Shown: piece after piece, positions 3,268 to 44,129 of the stretch | How positions within the stretch are numbered: position 1 is the stretch's first letter | Layout: every line of letters starts with the position of its first letter | Position numbers and translations under genes: made by a program | The notes under the pieces: generated by a model | What the model saw: the letters and a program-made list of their open reading frames with translations, nothing else | Told to the model about the DNA's origin: nothing | Databases searched by the model: none | Source of the DNA: an uncultured Pelagibacteraceae bacterium | Lineage (GTDB): Bacteria; Pseudomonadota; Alphaproteobacteria; Pelagibacterales; Pelagibacteraceae | Direction: 5' to 3' | NCBI GenBank assembly: GCA_902599955.1 | Contig: CACKHK010000001.1 | Span: 1-64,000 of the forward strand | DNA length: 64,000 nucleotides

Positions 3268-3299
3268 TGAACAAGTATATTATTTTAATTAAATTATTT

Positions 3300-3332
3300 A
3301 AAAAACGGGGATTAGTAAAATCCCCGTTTTTT
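3300..3332 (-). terminator. Intrinsic terminator between dctP-type and dctQ-type genes
   Basis: AAAAAACGGGGATT-AGTAA-AATCCCCGTTTTTT: 14-bp perfect stem, 5-nt loop, T tract. Confidence 0.85.
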
Positions 3333-3342
3333 ATAAAGTTAC

Positions 3343-4431
3343 TTATTGTTGTGCTGCAAATGCAGATCCAATTGATGCATCAGATGTTTCCATTTGTGCA
3401 ATAAAAGGTACTACAACTTTTGCGTGCTCAGTCATGTGCTCGTAAACTTGTTTAAAGAAAGCATTCTCTGCTGCATTCTTTTTAAGAGTAGCTTGAGCAG
3501 CGTTCATGTACTCTGTGAAATAATCAGCTGGTGTATCCCATAGTTTTACACCATGATTTTGAGTAAGATCAATTAACGCTTTTCCATTTTCTACAGCTCT
3601 GTTTGTAATATTTCTTGTGATCATAGCTTCAGATGCAACTTCCATTGCATATTTTTGATGATCAGTTAAAGAATTATAAACATCACCATTTATGTAAATA
3701 TCTCCATTTACAACATTTTGGTGAAGACCTTGTAGATAGTAGTTTTTAAGAACTTTTTGGAAACCAAATACTGAGTCTGGTTTTGGACAACACCACTCTG
3801 CAGCATCAATTGTTCCTTTTTCAAGTGCTGGTAAAATATCACCACCTGATAAAGATACTGATGCAATTCCGATATCTTTGTATGTTTGTCCTGGAATTCC
3901 TGGAGGAGTTCTGAACCTGTATTTTCTGAAATCATCCATGTTCTTAATTGGCTCTTTAAACCAACCTAATGCTTCAGGTCCTGATGATGCCATCACGAAA
4001 CCTTTAACATTCATTCCCATTTCGCTCCATAATTGGTCGTATAATTCTTTACCACCATTATCGAAATACCATGCTAACCAAGATTTAGTACTTAAACCAA
4101 TTCCTCCACCAGCAACTGGCGATCCAAATAACATCGCAGCTGGGTGATAGTTTGACCAGTAGTGAGTCCATGCTGCACCACCATCTACTAGACCTTTGTC
4201 AACAGCTTCTAGTGTTTCTTTCATACCAACAACTTCACCTTTTGAAAGAAGCTCAAATTTTAACTCTCCACGAGTTAATTTTGTTACTCTGTCAGTCCAC
4301 ATTTTTACGATTTGTCCATCGTATGATGTTTTAGGAAAAGTAAGTTGGATTTTTAATGTTTTAGCAGAAGCAGATCCAATTACTGAAACTGCAAATACTA
4401 AAGCTAAAATCATTGAAGTGATTTTTTTCAT
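3343..4431 (-). CDS. dctP: TRAP transporter substrate-binding protein (DctP type)
   Basis: 362 aa with signal peptide (MKKITSMILALVFAVSVIGSASA); 'FRTPPGIPGQTYKDIGIASVSLSGGDILPALEKGTIDAAEW' typical of DctP family. Confidence 0.9.
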   Translation of the reverse strand: MKKITSMILALVFAVSVIGSASAKTLKIQLTFPKTSYDGQIVKMWTDRVTKLTRGELKFELLSKGEVVGMKETLEAVDKGLVDGGAAWTHYWSNYHPAAMLFGSPVAGGGIGLSTKSWLAWYFDNGGKELYDQLWSEMGMNVKGFVMASSGPEALGWFKEPIKNMDDFRKYRFRTPPGIPGQTYKDIGIASVSLSGGDILPALEKGTIDAAEWCCPKPDSVFGFQKVLKNYYLQGLHQNVVNGDIYINGDVYNSLTDHQKYAMEVASEAMITRNITNRAVENGKALIDLTQNHGVKLWDTPADYFTEYMNAAQATLKKNAAENAFFKQVYEHMTEHAKVVVPFIAQMETSDASIGSAFAAQQ

Positions 4432-21466: not shown

Positions 21467-22365
21467 CAGCGTTCCTTTATTTTATTCATTACTTTTACAT
21501 AAACATTTCCAAAACCAAAAATAGTTACAAATAAAATGACAGCAAAAGCTGAACTGTAACCGGTTTTCCATTTTTCAAATGCTTCTCTTTTTAAATTGAT
21601 TGAGGCGAGCTCTGTAGCTGAACCAGGGCCGCCAGATGTAAGTTCAACGACCATGTCAAACATTTTGAAATTCTCAATCCCTCTAAATAACAAAGCCAAT
21701 AATAAAAATGGTAATACAGATGGTAGTGTGATGTATATAAATTGTTGCCATTTACTAGCCCTATCAACTTCAGCAGCCTCATATAAATAATTTGGAACTG
21801 ATCTTAGACCGGCTAAACAAATCAACATTGTAAAAGGTGTCCACATCCAAGTATCAACTATAACTATCGACCAAGGTGCGAGTTCACTTGAACCAATCAT
21901 ATCAAAACTTCCAAAATCGTAAAAAAAGTTTACTACATAATTAAATAAACCTACTTGAGGATTATAAAGATAAGTCCAAAAAACACCCACAACAGCAGGC
22001 GATAACATCATTGGTAATACTATTAGTGTGGTTAATAATTCATTACCTTTAAATTTCCTGTTTAATAATAAAGCCAAACCTAATCCAATTACTGCCTGAA
22101 GTAACAAAGTCCAAAACATAAAGTTTGCAGTAACCTGCATTTTTTCCCATATGGCCTCTTTATTGAGAACTTTTATATAATTTTTTAAACCGACAAACTG
22201 TGGTTCTCTCCCAATTTTATTTGCGTAAAAATTTGTAAAAGACATTCTGATTGCATAAATCAAAGGATAAATATTTATCGCCAATAAAAGAAAGACAGAT
22301 GGTCCAATGAAAAGCCATGCTACAGCCTTATCAGAAAGTCCTTTAAATTTTTTTTTAACGCTCAT
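21466..22365 (-). CDS. Carbohydrate-type ABC transporter permease (MalF-like)
   Basis: EAA loop 'YEAAEVDRASKWQQFIYITLPSVLPFL'. Confidence 0.92.
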   Translation of the reverse strand: MSVKKKFKGLSDKAVAWLFIGPSVFLLLAINIYPLIYAIRMSFTNFYANKIGREPQFVGLKNYIKVLNKEAIWEKMQVTANFMFWTLLLQAVIGLGLALLLNRKFKGNELLTTLIVLPMMLSPAVVGVFWTYLYNPQVGLFNYVVNFFYDFGSFDMIGSSELAPWSIVIVDTWMWTPFTMLICLAGLRSVPNYLYEAAEVDRASKWQQFIYITLPSVLPFLLLALLFRGIENFKMFDMVVELTSGGPGSATELASINLKREAFEKWKTGYSSAFAVILFVTIFGFGNVYVKVMNKIKER

Positions 22366-22375
22366 ATGATTTTTT

Positions 22376-22410
22376 AAAAAAAAGGGGAGATATTACCCCC
22401 CCTTTTTTTT
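22376..22410 (-). terminator. Intrinsic terminator between SBP and permease genes
   Basis: Minus-strand AAAAAAAAGGGG...CCCCTTTTTTTT hairpin, 20-55 nt past the SBP stop codon. Confidence 0.75.
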
Positions 22411-22430: not shown

Positions 22431-23735
22431 TTAAAGTTTTCCGTCTGCTTCAAATACTTCAACCCACTCTTCGATAATTTTATCTAGAGCGCCTTTAGCA
22501 GTTCCTTTTCCATTAACAACGTAATCATGAATAGCTTCCTGCATAGGTAACATTAACTCAACAAATGTTGGTTCTTGCCAAAAATCTTTGACAATTCCCA
22601 TTGAGTCCAAGAAACCTTGTGCATAAACTGTAGATGTAGGGAACGATGGTGAATTTAATACATCATTATGACATGAATATCCGCCTAAATCCCACCATTT
22701 TTGCTGTACATCTGGTCTTGCAAACCATTTAATATATTCTAATGCAAGATCTTGTTTATCTGAATATTTAACAACAGATATACCTTGTCCACCTAATGTT
22801 GCAGCAGCTACGTTTTGTTTTGGATTTGCAAAGAAACCACTAACTCTTCCGTCGCTATCTTCTTTAGAAACACCTGGCCAAAAAGCATACCAGTTCATTT
22901 GGAATGCTACTTGTCCTGATTTATATGCATCTAAGTTTGCTACCATATAAGCATCAGAGTGTCCTGGAGGAGCACAGTCCTCATATAATTTTCTATAGAA
23001 TTCTACAGCTTCTACTGCTTGCGGAGAATTGAAATAACCTTCCATATCGTACGGTTTGTTTGGATTTTCATATTCCATACCCCATGCATACATAGCAGCA
23101 GTTACACCCATTGTAATACCTTCAGATCCACGCTCTGTATTTATAGCAGCACCGTATCTTTTTTGACCATCAATTTCTCTTCCTTGGAAAAAAGTACACA
23201 TGTCATATAGTTGATCCCAACTAGCAGGTACACCTAAATCATAACCATGTTTCTTTTTGAATTCAGATTTAAGCTCAGGTCTATCAAACCAGTCTTTTCT
23301 ATAAGCCCATGCTAATGCATCTCCCATAGCTGGTAGTGCATAATAGTTTTCACTTCCTTTTGGCCATGTTGAATACGCATAAACTGTTGCAGGTGAGAAA
23401 TCGTTCATTGAAATTCCTTCTTTATCAAAAAAGTCATTCAATTTTACATAGTGTCCATACACTGCACCAGCACCGATCCATTGTGAGTCACCAATTAACA
23501 AGTCAAAAGTTTTACCTTTGTTGTTAAGTTCGTTCAACATACGATCAGCAAAATTAGGCCATGGTACGAATTCGAAGTTAACATCTATTCCTGTCTCTGC
23601 TGTAAACTCTTTTGTAAGTTCTTGTAATGCATTAGCAGGGTCCCAAGCGGCCCATCCTAATGTTATTGACTTAGCATTTGAATTTGCAGAAAAAGTAAAT
23701 AGAGAAACAAACAATAAAATCATTATTTTTTTCAT
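22431..23735 (-). CDS. Extracellular solute-binding protein (family 1, sugar/polyol type)
   Basis: Signal peptide MKKIMILLFVSLFTFSANSNA; 'LAWAYRKDWFDRPE', 'FQMNWYAFWPGV'; start chosen at internal Met before signal peptide. Confidence 0.9.
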   Translation of the reverse strand: MKKIMILLFVSLFTFSANSNAKSITLGWAAWDPANALQELTKEFTAETGIDVNFEFVPWPNFADRMLNELNNKGKTFDLLIGDSQWIGAGAVYGHYVKLNDFFDKEGISMNDFSPATVYAYSTWPKGSENYYALPAMGDALAWAYRKDWFDRPELKSEFKKKHGYDLGVPASWDQLYDMCTFFQGREIDGQKRYGAAINTERGSEGITMGVTAAMYAWGMEYENPNKPYDMEGYFNSPQAVEAVEFYRKLYEDCAPPGHSDAYMVANLDAYKSGQVAFQMNWYAFWPGVSKEDSDGRVSGFFANPKQNVAAATLGGQGISVVKYSDKQDLALEYIKWFARPDVQQKWWDLGGYSCHNDVLNSPSFPTSTVYAQGFLDSMGIVKDFWQEPTFVELMLPMQEAIHDYVVNGKGTAKGALDKIIEEWVEVFEADGKL

Positions 23736-23851
23736 TTTATCTCCTATTAATTTAATTATTCTTAATAATAGTCTATCCAAGAAGACTTGTGCCTGCTAGT
23801 ATTTTTTTTGTAAAAAATAGTTGGGTAAAAAATTAAAGAGAAAGGGGAATT

Positions 23852-26425: not shown

Positions 26426-26438
26426 CTTAAAGAATGAG

Positions 26439-26475
26439 ATATGGGGCAATCATATTTATATGCCCCATATTTTTT
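26439..26475 (+). terminator. Intrinsic terminator downstream of the 63-aa ORF
   Basis: ATATGGGGCA-N12-TGCCCCATAT followed by T tract. Confidence 0.85.
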
Positions 26476-40084: not shown

Positions 40085-41143
40085 TTAAAAACAGACAATG
40101 TGGTCAATATGAATTGGTCTTTTAATACCAAATTTTTCATCTATCTCATGTTGATGAATATGATGAGAATGAACAAATACAGGAATTTGTAAATTACTTT
40201 CAGTTTTAAGGGTGTAGATAAAATTTGTTCCTCTGAATTTTCGATCAACTACTTCCAACTTTAAATTACTTTTGTCATCATGCTCTAGATCTTCAGGTTG
40301 CAATAAAAGTTTAACATCAGATCCATTAGGGTAATGTTTTACAAAATTGCCTTGGATTGTTCCTAGATCTTTATTTTCTAAACTATTCTCACTTGTTACT
40401 TTTGCTGGAATTAAAATTCCTCTATTTAAAAAATTTACAACCTCAATTGAATTTGGAAAATGATAAACATTGTATGGGTCGTCAAATTGTTTAAGTTGTT
40501 TATTTAAAATAATTCCGCACTTGCTTCCCAAATAAAAAGCTTCATATGAGTCATGTGTTACAATAATAGTTGTTATTTTAGATTTGCTTAATAATTGTTT
40601 TAACTCAACTTGAATTTCTTCTTTAAAACTTTGATCAACATTTGAAAGTGGTTCATCTAGAAGAAGTAAATCTGGATTAGAAACTAATGATCTTGCAAGC
40701 GATGCTCTTTGAGCTTCTCCAGCACTTATTTCATGAGGATATTTATTTAATATTTTTTTTAGGTTTAAAAAACTAATTATTTCTTTTGGATTTATTTTCT
40801 TTTTCTTTTTACTTTTTTTTTCAGTACCAATTAAAATATTTTTTTCTACATTATAGTGAGGAAATAAACTATTTTCTTGAAAAGCAAGTGATATATTTCG
40901 GTCCTCTGGTTCAACATGTTTGTTTTTTGAGGACATTAACTTATTATTTATTGTTATTGATCCATTAACGATCTTCTCTAAGCCAGCAATAGTTCTTAAA
41001 ATTGTTGTTTTTCCTATTCCAGATGGCCCTAATAGACAAATTATATCGCCTTCATTTTGAATTGAAAAAGAGACGTTTTTTACTTTGGTTTGACCACTAA
41101 CTATAAAGTCAACATTTTTAATTTCTAAAAAATTTTTACTCAT
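40085..41143 (-). CDS. fbpC: Fe(III)-type ABC transporter ATP-binding protein
   Basis: Walker A GPSGIGKTT, 'ISAGEAQRASLARSLV', LLLDEPLSNVD; co-directional with FbpB-like permease. Confidence 0.88.
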   Translation of the reverse strand: MSKNFLEIKNVDFIVSGQTKVKNVSFSIQNEGDIICLLGPSGIGKTTILRTIAGLEKIVNGSITINNKLMSSKNKHVEPEDRNISLAFQENSLFPHYNVEKNILIGTEKKSKKKKKINPKEIISFLNLKKILNKYPHEISAGEAQRASLARSLVSNPDLLLLDEPLSNVDQSFKEEIQVELKQLLSKSKITTIIVTHDSYEAFYLGSKCGIILNKQLKQFDDPYNVYHFPNSIEVVNFLNRGILIPAKVTSENSLENKDLGTIQGNFVKHYPNGSDVKLLLQPEDLEHDDKSNLKLEVVDRKFRGTNFIYTLKTESNLQIPVFVHSHHIHQHEIDEKFGIKRPIHIDHIVCF

Positions 41144-42764
41144 TATTATCTTTTAAAATATATTTAGAAGATATTGTAATAAAAAAAGCTGCAATTAAAA
41201 TTAAAAATAATGATGGTACTGCTGCTGCCTCAAGCATGTCCTCGGATGCAGAAATATATGCTGTTGTTGCAAATGTTTCAAAATTAAAAGGTCTTAAAAC
41301 TAAGGTAATTGGTAATTCTCTAATTATCTCTAGCGAAATTAGTATAATTACAAATAAAAGTGAATTTCTTAAATATGGAATGTGGATATTAAAAAAAGTC
41401 TTTCTTTTTGAATAACCAAGTAGATAGGCACTTTCATCAACTGAAAAATTTATTTTTTCATAACCAGATTTAATCCCATTAAATGCTAATGAATAAAAAC
41501 GAATGAAATAAACAATTATTAATCCTAAGATTGACCCAATAAATATTTTTTTAATAGATAAAAAACCAAGAGATTTAATTATATTATTATCAAACCATGC
41601 AATAAAAGTTATAAAGGCTACAGCTAATATTACACCTGGTATTGCATATCCTGATATTGATAGTGTCGATAAAAAATTAAGAGTTTTATTTTTTGAAACA
41701 CGGTTACCATAATTTGAAAGCAATGCAAAAAATATTAAAACAATACTGGATAGTGTCACTAAATATAAAGTATTTAATAAAAGGTTCATTACATTTACAT
41801 CAAAAAAGTTTTCTGGAAATTTAATTGTCCAATAGACCATTTGACTTAATGGAAATAAAAAACTAAAAAAAAATAATAGAAAACAAAACAAGAAAGCAAA
41901 AAAAGAATTTATACCTGAGAGTTTTATTTTTTCTTTTTGTTTAAATCCACCTCTAGAGTCCAAATGATATTTTGCTTTTTTTCTAGATAGTTTTTCTGTT
42001 AAAAATAAAATAAATATGAATAATAGTAGAAAGAAAGATATTCTATTTGCAAAAGCTAAATCATCAAATGTTATCCATGCATTATAAATACCTGTTGTAA
42101 GAGTATTAACTGAAAAAAAGTCAACAGCTCCAAATTCTGCCAATGTTTCCATTGCAACTAAAGATAGACCTGCAACAATTGCGGGTCGTGAAGCAGGTAA
42201 TATAATAAAAAAAAAAGATTTAAATTTGGAAAAACCTAAGTTTTTTCCAAGTTCAATTAAGTTTTGTGATTGATATAAAAATGAAGATCTTCCTAATATG
42301 TAAACATAAGCGTAAAGTGAAAATGAAATTGATAAAATTAATCCAAACATACCGTCAAATTTTGGTATATGTTGATTAAATTCGCCCTCACCAAATAAGG
42401 TCTTTAATATAGTAAATGCTGTTCCGTAATTATCAAAGAAGGCAAATAACGAATATGCATATATATAAGGTGGAATTGCAAAAGATAAAATTAAAGCCCA
42501 TTTAAAAAAATTAACTCCAAGAAATTCATAAAACGATACTAAATATGATGCTCCTACTCCCAAGATAAAAGTTAAAATTAAAACACCAATCAAAAGCAAT
42601 AAAGAATTAAGAATATACTCAAATAGAAAAGTGGATTTTAAAATTTCAAAATATCGAGAGGTTTCTTCAAAAAAACTAATTGAAACGGTTATAATTGGAA
42701 TAATAACAAGTAATGAAACTAATAAAGAGCTTAGAAACCATATATTAAGTTTGTTTGAATTCAT
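41136..42764 (-). CDS. fbpB: Fe(III)-type ABC transporter fused permease
   Basis: 542 aa, two EAA loops ('ELGKNLGFSKFKSFFFIILPASRPAI', 'ESAYLLGYSKRKTFFNIHIPYLRNS'). Confidence 0.88.
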   Translation of the reverse strand: MNSNKLNIWFLSSLLVSLLVIIPIITVSISFFEETSRYFEILKSTFLFEYILNSLLLLIGVLILTFILGVGASYLVSFYEFLGVNFFKWALILSFAIPPYIYAYSLFAFFDNYGTAFTILKTLFGEGEFNQHIPKFDGMFGLILSISFSLYAYVYILGRSSFLYQSQNLIELGKNLGFSKFKSFFFIILPASRPAIVAGLSLVAMETLAEFGAVDFFSVNTLTTGIYNAWITFDDLAFANRISFFLLLFIFILFLTEKLSRKKAKYHLDSRGGFKQKEKIKLSGINSFFAFLFCFLLFFFSFLFPLSQMVYWTIKFPENFFDVNVMNLLLNTLYLVTLSSIVLIFFALLSNYGNRVSKNKTLNFLSTLSISGYAIPGVILAVAFITFIAWFDNNIIKSLGFLSIKKIFIGSILGLIIVYFIRFYSLAFNGIKSGYEKINFSVDESAYLLGYSKRKTFFNIHIPYLRNSLLFVIILISLEIIRELPITLVLRPFNFETFATTAYISASEDMLEAAAVPSLFLILIAAFFITISSKYILKDNNE

Positions 42765-42810: not shown

Positions 42811-42845
42811 TAAAAGTGCCTACGAAAGATACATAGGCACTTTTA
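42811..42845 (-). terminator. Hairpin, probable terminator/attenuator between fbpA-small ORF and fbpB
   Basis: TAAAAGTGCCTA...TAGGCACTTTTA, 12-bp perfect stem; T run is short. Confidence 0.65.
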
Positions 42846-42855
42846 TTAAAAAAGG

Positions 42856-43005
42856 TCAGATATTGAATACTTTTAGAATGTGCGGAAAATCTTTAGTATT
42901 TATCTCTGATAACTTTCTTTTATTTATTCTTTTGTTAATTTTTTTACACTCCTCAGCACATGGGATACATGGCTTGACTGATTTATTGTAATTAACATCA
43001 GACAT
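42856..43005 (-). CDS. Small CxxCxxxC-containing hypothetical protein
   Basis: MSDVNYNKSVKPCIPCAEECKKINKRINKRKLSEINTKDFPHILKVFNI; lies between fbpA stop and the hairpin. Confidence 0.5.
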   Translation of the reverse strand: MSDVNYNKSVKPCIPCAEECKKINKRINKRKLSEINTKDFPHILKVFNI

Positions 43006-43028: not shown

Positions 43029-44057
43029 TTATTTCCAACCTGCAGCTGTCATTACTTCTAATGCATCCGCTTGCTTAGCTCCATAACTAGCAACGCTTGT
43101 GGTAAAATCTTGTTTAAAATCTAAACCTAAGTTGTTTACTACTAACGGGTTTGGTGAAACACCTGCAATCATCGGAAACTCAAAAGTATTATTAGTGAAA
43201 TGTTCTTGTGCTTCTGGTGATAACAAATAATCTACAAGTGCAATTGCATTAGCTTTATTTGGAGCACCTTTAACTAGAGCAGCACAACTAATATTCATAT
43301 GTGTTCCTCTATCATTTTGATTAGGGAAAAATGCCTTTACTTTTCTAGCTGCTGCTTGTTGTTCTGCACCTTTGTTCCCGGATAACATCAAAGCTAAATA
43401 GTATGTGTTTGCAACTGCAATGTCTGCTTCTCCTGCGGCAACTGCCATAATCTGAGCTCTGTCATTTCCTTTAGGATCTCTTGCCATATTGGCAACAACA
43501 CCTTTTGCCCACTCTCTAGCAGCTTTTTTTCCATTATTTTTTACTAATGATGCTACTAAAGATTTATTGTAAATATTGCTAGATGCTCTTATTGCAATTC
43601 TACCTTTCCATTTAGGATCAGCCAGACTTTCATAAGTTAGTCCAGATAATTCTGCTCCACTTACTCTTTCTGGAGCGTAATAGACTATTCTAGCTCTCTT
43701 AGCTACGCCAACCCAGTGAGTTGTTCTAAAGTTTTTTGGAACTGAAGATTTGATAGTTGGTGAAACAAGTCCTGCTTGCGTCATACCTTTTGCTTTAAAA
43801 GCACCACATCTTCCTGCATCTGCTGTGATGTAAAGATCGGCAGCTGAGTCTGCACCTTCCTCGATCATTCTTTTCTCTAAAGCTCCAGCTTTACCATTAA
43901 TTAAATTTACTTTAATTCCAGTTGCTGCAGTAAATTTGCTATAAAGTTCTGCGTCAGCTTTATAGTGTCTAGCATTGAATATATTTACCTCATTTGCTTT
44001 AGCAAAAGTTGAAACAAATAATGATAGAATTAATGCTGAAATTGATATTTTTTTCAT
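43029..44057 (-). CDS. fbpA: Fe(III) ABC transporter substrate-binding protein
   Basis: Signal peptide; 'VNIFNARHYKADAELYSKFTAATGIKVNLINGKAGALEKRMIEEG' and 'VANTYYLALM' (tyrosine iron-binding motif). Confidence 0.93.
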   Translation of the reverse strand: MKKISISALILSLFVSTFAKANEVNIFNARHYKADAELYSKFTAATGIKVNLINGKAGALEKRMIEEGADSAADLYITADAGRCGAFKAKGMTQAGLVSPTIKSSVPKNFRTTHWVGVAKRARIVYYAPERVSGAELSGLTYESLADPKWKGRIAIRASSNIYNKSLVASLVKNNGKKAAREWAKGVVANMARDPKGNDRAQIMAVAAGEADIAVANTYYLALMLSGNKGAEQQAAARKVKAFFPNQNDRGTHMNISCAALVKGAPNKANAIALVDYLLSPEAQEHFTNNTFEFPMIAGVSPNPLVVNNLGLDFKQDFTTSVASYGAKQADALEVMTAAGWK

Positions 44058-44085: not shown

Positions 44086-44129
44086 TTTATAATGATTTTG
44101 AGAACTATTCGCAATGATAATGATTATCA
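44086..44129 (-). promoter_or_regulatory. fbpA promoter with adjacent Fur-type operator
   Basis: Fur 7-1-7 palindrome TGATAAT-G-ATTATCA at 44115-44129 (+ strand); minus-strand -35 TTGCGA (44109-44114), 17-nt spacer, -10 TATAAA (44086-44091). Confidence 0.8.

Follow-up and report, generated by a model that had tools for sequence, protein, structure and literature searches.

In the SAR11 genome analyzed here, a hairpin after substrate-binding-protein (SBP) genes is close to a genome-wide rule, and we consider it probable that these hairpins, most of them leaky internal terminators, form a class that yields an excess of SBP over translocator. Three members of the class lie in the window (the whole stretch of 64,000 nucleotides that was analyzed), where a first-pass annotation had proposed a general post-transcriptional mechanism of transporter stoichiometry. 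The hairpin of the iron (fbp) operon is the unusual member and may have a regulatory function as well.

The hairpin of the iron operon

The fbp operon of the window lies on the minus strand, in the order fbpA, small Cys ORF, hairpin, fbpB, fbpC. The first gene, fbpA/sfuC (43029..44057), encodes a periplasmic ferric-iron-binding protein (SBP) of 342 aa (Pfam SBP_bac_6/8), whose best sequence matches among solved structures are iron-binding SBPs (6g7n, 2pt1, 2voz) and whose near matches come from single-cell genomes labelled uncultured Pelagibacteraceae (SAR11). The small Cys-rich ORF (42856..43005, 49 aa, motif CxxC...EC), for which no match was found in Pfam or NCBIfam, belongs to a family of ∼49–64 aa with the pattern NKSS..C.PC..EC.KIN.RIN.RKLSEI...VPHILKVF; the family adjoins fbpA throughout the Pelagibacteraceae (L085–L224) and was not found at those loci of the sister family that were inspected. 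Downstream of the hairpin lie fbpB (41136..42764), a fused ABC permease of 542 aa (Pfam BPD_transp_1), and fbpC (40085..41143), an ABC ATP-binding protein (Pfam ABC_tran). Upstream of fbpA we found a candidate Fur-box-like palindrome at 44116..44128 of the minus strand (GATAATGATTATC on the plus strand); similar 13-mers are present in 74 of 109 related loci, a count that has no shuffle baseline. Some relatives (L086, L088, L094, L321 and others) have an extra gene of ∼180 codons between fbpA and fbpB, which sits 3' of the hairpin in L086, L088 and L094; its translation from L321 resembles, by eye, a peroxiredoxin.

The hairpin that the first-pass annotation had claimed at 42811..42845 is real: its arms, TAAAAGTGCCTA (42811–42822) and TAGGCACTTTTA (42834–42845), lie where that annotation placed them, between the stop of the small Cys ORF (42856) and the start of fbpB (42764), and form a 12-bp perfect inverted repeat with an 11-nt loop. 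When folded, the transcribed (minus) strand forms 14 pairs around a 7-nt loop, TATCTTT, with an energy of −18.4 to −19.2 kcal/mol. The 7-bp core with its spacing has one match in the window, compared with 0.03 expected from shuffles, so that the gap 3' of fbpA and the small Cys ORF contains a stable stem-loop beyond chance. Only "AAATTATT" follows the closing stem, or TTTTAAATT if the tail is counted from the last C, giving an interrupted U-tract with 6 T in 9. In a canonical intrinsic terminator, a run with at least 5 T in 8 comes immediately after a GC-rich stem; with its AAATTATT tail the fbp hairpin falls outside this definition, and because the tail is short and broken it is absent from the sites of a simple terminator scan. 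No Rfam 15 covariance model matched it over the gathering score. REP elements form a family of repeated sequences; the fbp hairpin is a single match in the window, and the hairpins after SBP genes all differ in sequence, as the first-pass annotation had stated.

The other two hairpins on which that annotation relied are also present, both on the minus strand. One, at 3299..3333, follows the TRAP SBP gene dctP (3343–4431) and precedes a small permease gene; the other, at 22376..22410, has a U-tract and lies between a sugar ABC SBP gene (22431–23780) and a permease gene that starts at 22365 (genes named by Pfam). Separately, a strong hairpin with a T-tract at 26436–26473 lies between convergent genes, one of them for a cupin protein whose beginning resembles a signal peptide, and appears to be a bidirectional terminator.

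Hairpins after SBP genes across the genome

We examined the host draft genome (SAR11; 1,038,725 bases in 47 contigs, 71% complete, 29% G+C), in which 1082 genes were called with a simple purpose-made gene caller, which leaves the calls of start codons and very small genes approximate. The best local hairpin was scored in every gap, and SBP genes were named via Pfam, independently of the hairpins. Strong hairpins (−12 or lower) at most 40 nt past the stop codon were found after 24 of the 28 SBP genes and after 16 of the 1016 remaining genes (Fisher p = 3e-34), and fbpA becomes the 25th SBP case once the small ORF before its hairpin is allowed for. The SBP genes without a hairpin are two of TctC type and one DctP, with gaps of 23–26 nt. 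When the comparison is restricted to length-matched co-directional gaps (40–170 nt, without tRNA, threshold −14), a hairpin is found in 22/22 gaps after SBP genes, compared with 5/119 others (p about 3e-21). The proposed rule therefore survives the genome-wide scan that had been suggested as its refutation test. The effect is specific to position: none of 17 gaps of similar length before SBP genes has a hairpin, and only 1 of 50 later junctions within the same operons does.

Terminator-like hairpins were found after 31 genes in the whole draft, 22 of them SBP genes and 9 others, and of 268 genes that end a strand run just 11 have a strong hairpin on their 3' side; strong 3' hairpins are thus largely an SBP feature of this genome. 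With hairpins so scarce at run ends, and a median of 0 nt between convergent genes, most transcripts must end otherwise, perhaps by Rho.

Except in the fbp operon, the stem starts about 8–35 nt after the SBP stop codon, and the distance from stem end to the next start has a median of 23 nt, being ≤36 nt in 19 of 25 cases and <10 nt in several. At least 7 T in the 9 nt after the stem are present in 18 of 25 hairpins, and the U-tracts outweigh the A-tracts on the upstream side (Wilcoxon p = 1e-4).

Hairpins in related genomes

The enrichment recurs in other Pelagibacterales. All 30 family-3 SBP loci have a hairpin, as do most DctP loci of relatives, the exception being one DctP group with a 24-nt gap. 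In six further genomes a hairpin is present in 21/31 stretches after SBP genes compared with 0/30 after permeases (p = 4e-9), a count that retains as misses both Peripla_BP_6 cases, including weakly scoring proteins that are maybe not transporter SBPs, and SBP_bac_8 cases, which are fbpA loci with the hairpin further downstream. The hairpin of the family-3 amino-acid SBP genes (GGCGACTATA..TATAGTCGCC, in gaps of 43–46 nt) has no U-tract; both sides have changed in 3 of its 8 pairs, and its covariation score exceeds all 500 shuffles. A rule for all Alphaproteobacteria was rejected: a significant hairpin follows just a subset of DctP genes in GC-rich genomes and in other small ones (a fixed stretch after the stop was used in GC-rich loci because several downstream ORF calls are unreliable there). 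Given this mixed picture, we claim the rule for Pelagibacterales only.

In the fbpA–fbpB gaps of relatives, hairpin energy is −10 or lower in 103/107, mostly just 3' of the small ORF; a minority score best inside the small ORF, yet these also have a hairpin after it. One subclade (L094, L096, L108, L201 and others) has a second strong hairpin, GAGCGGTTCAC...GTGAACCATGCTC, inside the small Cys ORF itself, ∼50 nt past the fbpA stop. Stem sequences vary widely among clades, and the anchored outer pairs covary, with up to 5–6 pair types per position, although this count is favoured by an anchoring that relied on pairing itself. The apical loop contains CC in 50 of 78 distinct fbp hairpins (related loops, not independent events) and in 0 of 24 other SBP hairpins. 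C-rich loops among relatives include TATCCTT, TCTCCTT and TTTACCC, and some clades have GAAA or GGGG instead. In the sister family, the gap lacks the small ORF and still has, by eye, an inverted repeat around a pyrimidine-rich loop, which scores weakly in local folding windows.

In some clades (L089, L111, L332) the loop is perfectly complementary to the fbpB start region, and pairing of each loop with its own fbpB start is better than with swapped ones (p = 0.01, driven by one or two clades). The window's own loop, TATCTTT, has no CC and no convincing complement at the fbpB start. A universal loop–start pairing (pseudoknot) was therefore rejected. Two natural variants were also observed: the hairpin is decayed or deleted in L160, L161 and L162 (gaps of 266, 224 and 132 nt), and in L145 (CACDFI010000003.1), whose FbpA is 100% identical, a one-base change from TAGGCAC to TATGCAC weakens the stem to −12.6 kcal/mol.

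The fbp hairpin had been put forward as a further instance of the post-SBP design. It does belong to the class, but it is only in part of the same kind as the others: it lacks a proper U-tract, its stem covaries, and its loop is C-rich in relatives.

Discussion

The directional U-tract, the stem close to the SBP stop and the short distance to the next start together fit a leaky internal terminator better than two transcription units. From this anatomy, and from the enrichment, conservation and compensatory stem changes of the hairpins, we infer partial termination, mRNA protection and their effect on protein ratios. Most SBP genes of the class head transporter operons (ABC, TRAP). RNA polymerase would often halt at the hairpin, producing a short SBP mRNA with its 3' end capped by the hairpin, while a minority of read-through transcripts would carry the permease and ATPase genes; the predicted outcome is SBP in excess of translocator. 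In the fbp operon, with its Fur-box-like site upstream, the unit before the hairpin would comprise fbpA and the small Cys ORF, and because the U-tract is poor, 3'-end protection or processing probably contributes more there than termination. Hairpins without a U-tract, that of fbp included, fit 3'-end protection, and either route would raise SBP mRNA over permease mRNA. Of the mechanism proposed in the first-pass annotation, the enrichment that underlies a stoichiometry rule holds, while its "post-transcriptional" character is unproven, since most of the hairpins, having a U-tract, resemble partial terminators internal to the operon.

Integral membrane proteins such as SfuB are hard to detect in any case. 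When iron is limiting for Ca. P. ubique, microarrays show mRNA increases of 16-fold for sfuC, 10-fold for sfuB and 5-fold for sfuA, and SfuC protein increases 27-fold, while SfuB peptides were never detected (PMC2864753). This gradient fits SBP excess, with the proviso that the values are fold changes rather than levels and come from the operon of a relative.

How far could the same outcome arise with no termination at all? The hairpins might only block 3'-to-5' decay after endonucleolytic cleavage, so that the SBP part of the message outlives the permease part, as in mRNAs of the malE/malF or puf type. We regard this as possible but on balance not likely for the class. Several SBP hairpins do lack a U-tract, namely that of fbp and that of family 3, whose stem is kept via compensatory changes; E. 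coli SBP mRNAs are stabilised in this way whatever their operon position (PMC5927463); and four SBP genes of the draft with a hairpin have no permease next (g0156, g0404, g0427, g1004). However, a directional U-tract is present at most SBP hairpins and is not needed for decay protection alone.

For the fbp hairpin, a regulatory RNA element with a function beyond stoichiometry is a tentative alternative. Its C-rich loop, on a fast-changing stem, could pair with a Shine-Dalgarno-like sequence (that of fbpB in some clades, those of other mRNAs elsewhere) or bind a CspL/CspE-like RNA-binding protein; control of SfuC synthesis by CspE/CspL has been invoked (PMC2864753). The CC bias of the fbp loops, the pyrimidine-rich loops of the sister family and the perfect complementarity in some clades argue for such an element. 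Against it stand the window's own loop and the GAAA and GGGG loops of some clades, and the swap test hangs on one or two clades, the 78 loops not being independent events. Still more doubtful, in our judgement, is the fuller proposal of a new Pelagibacterales iron-operon element whose C-rich loop would pair with Shine-Dalgarno sequences, either that of fbpB (in cis) or others (in trans). One hairpin would then both set SBP excess and regulate translation under iron stress, in a genome that keeps its terminator-like hairpins largely for SBP genes.

It is unlikely that a 3' hairpin is a general mark of high expression, with SBP genes merely dominating the genes so marked. The non-SBP genes with such hairpins include groEL, recA and the genes for HU, glutamine synthetase, an ammonium transporter and a peroxiredoxin (named by eye), which are usually highly expressed kinds, but only 16 of 1016 non-SBP genes have a hairpin at all. 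Ordinary complete terminators, with SBP and permease genes as separate transcription units under their own promoters, are very improbable: the U-tract hairpins do resemble terminators, and sigma-70-like matches occur near fbpB, though no more commonly than in shuffles, but the spacing to the next start leaves little room for a separate permease promoter. A chance inverted repeat in AT-rich DNA, to which the A/T ends of the fbp stem might point, is refuted by the expected frequency of the core, by the presence of the hairpin at mostly the same place in relatives and by the covarying stem.

The preferred reading, SBP excess set mostly by leaky internal termination, matters for SAR11, whose cells rank with the most abundant on the planet and rely on SBPs in the periplasm. 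Should a single hairpin in each operon set that excess, a streamlined genome whose intergenic gaps are very short could tune protein ratios with no additional promoters. SBP reads would then not report transporter numbers, and uptake estimates from metatranscriptomes would need correction. In Ca. P. ubique the post-transcriptional response to iron is still unexplained, and the fbp element gives a concrete lead that can be tested.

Comparison with known systems

Our literature search, which covered few subscription papers, found no report of hairpins at SBP genes for SAR11 or TRAP operons. The mechanism itself is not new, since internal terminators in Clostridia and decay-based SBP excess in E. 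coli, of which malEFG is one example (Dar and Sorek 2018, PMC5927463), precede it; the SAR11 finding is a fresh instance. Wu et al. (2022, PMC9045158) showed internal terminators after SBP genes in Clostridia (Ruminiclostridium cellulolyticum) via Northern blots and reporters, and predicted further ones for 15 or more E. coli operons. The ABC importers of R. cellulolyticum resemble the operons described here in having a single stem-loop just 3' of the 5' SBP gene and before the translocator genes, with long stems and variable U-tracts, and the fbp locus has the same layout, an SBP gene followed by translocator genes on one (minus) strand. Termination and transcript ratios were measured in R. 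cellulolyticum, whereas the SAR11 case is known from sequence alone; on the other hand, the SAR11 hairpins are near-universal in the genome, extend to TRAP as well as ABC operons, and dominate the terminator-like hairpins of a streamlined genome.

The malE–malF intercistronic hairpin of E. coli (Newbury 1987; PMC5927463) is likewise a structure after an SBP gene, with SBP mRNA exceeding permease mRNA. Each SAR11 hairpin, in contrast to a member of the REP family, has its own sequence, and most have a U-tract. The iron-sparing sRNAs of the IsrR/RsaE type, which have C-rich loops, recall the fbp operon, with its Fur-box-like site and, in most relatives, a C-rich single-stranded loop. Such sRNAs are independent small transcripts that act on target mRNAs; the fbp hairpin shares with them the loop bias, has no strong terminator tail, and its loop motif is weakened in the window. 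Compared with these systems, the SAR11 pattern is an unusually complete instance of a known mechanism, and the fbp hairpin is its one unusual member.
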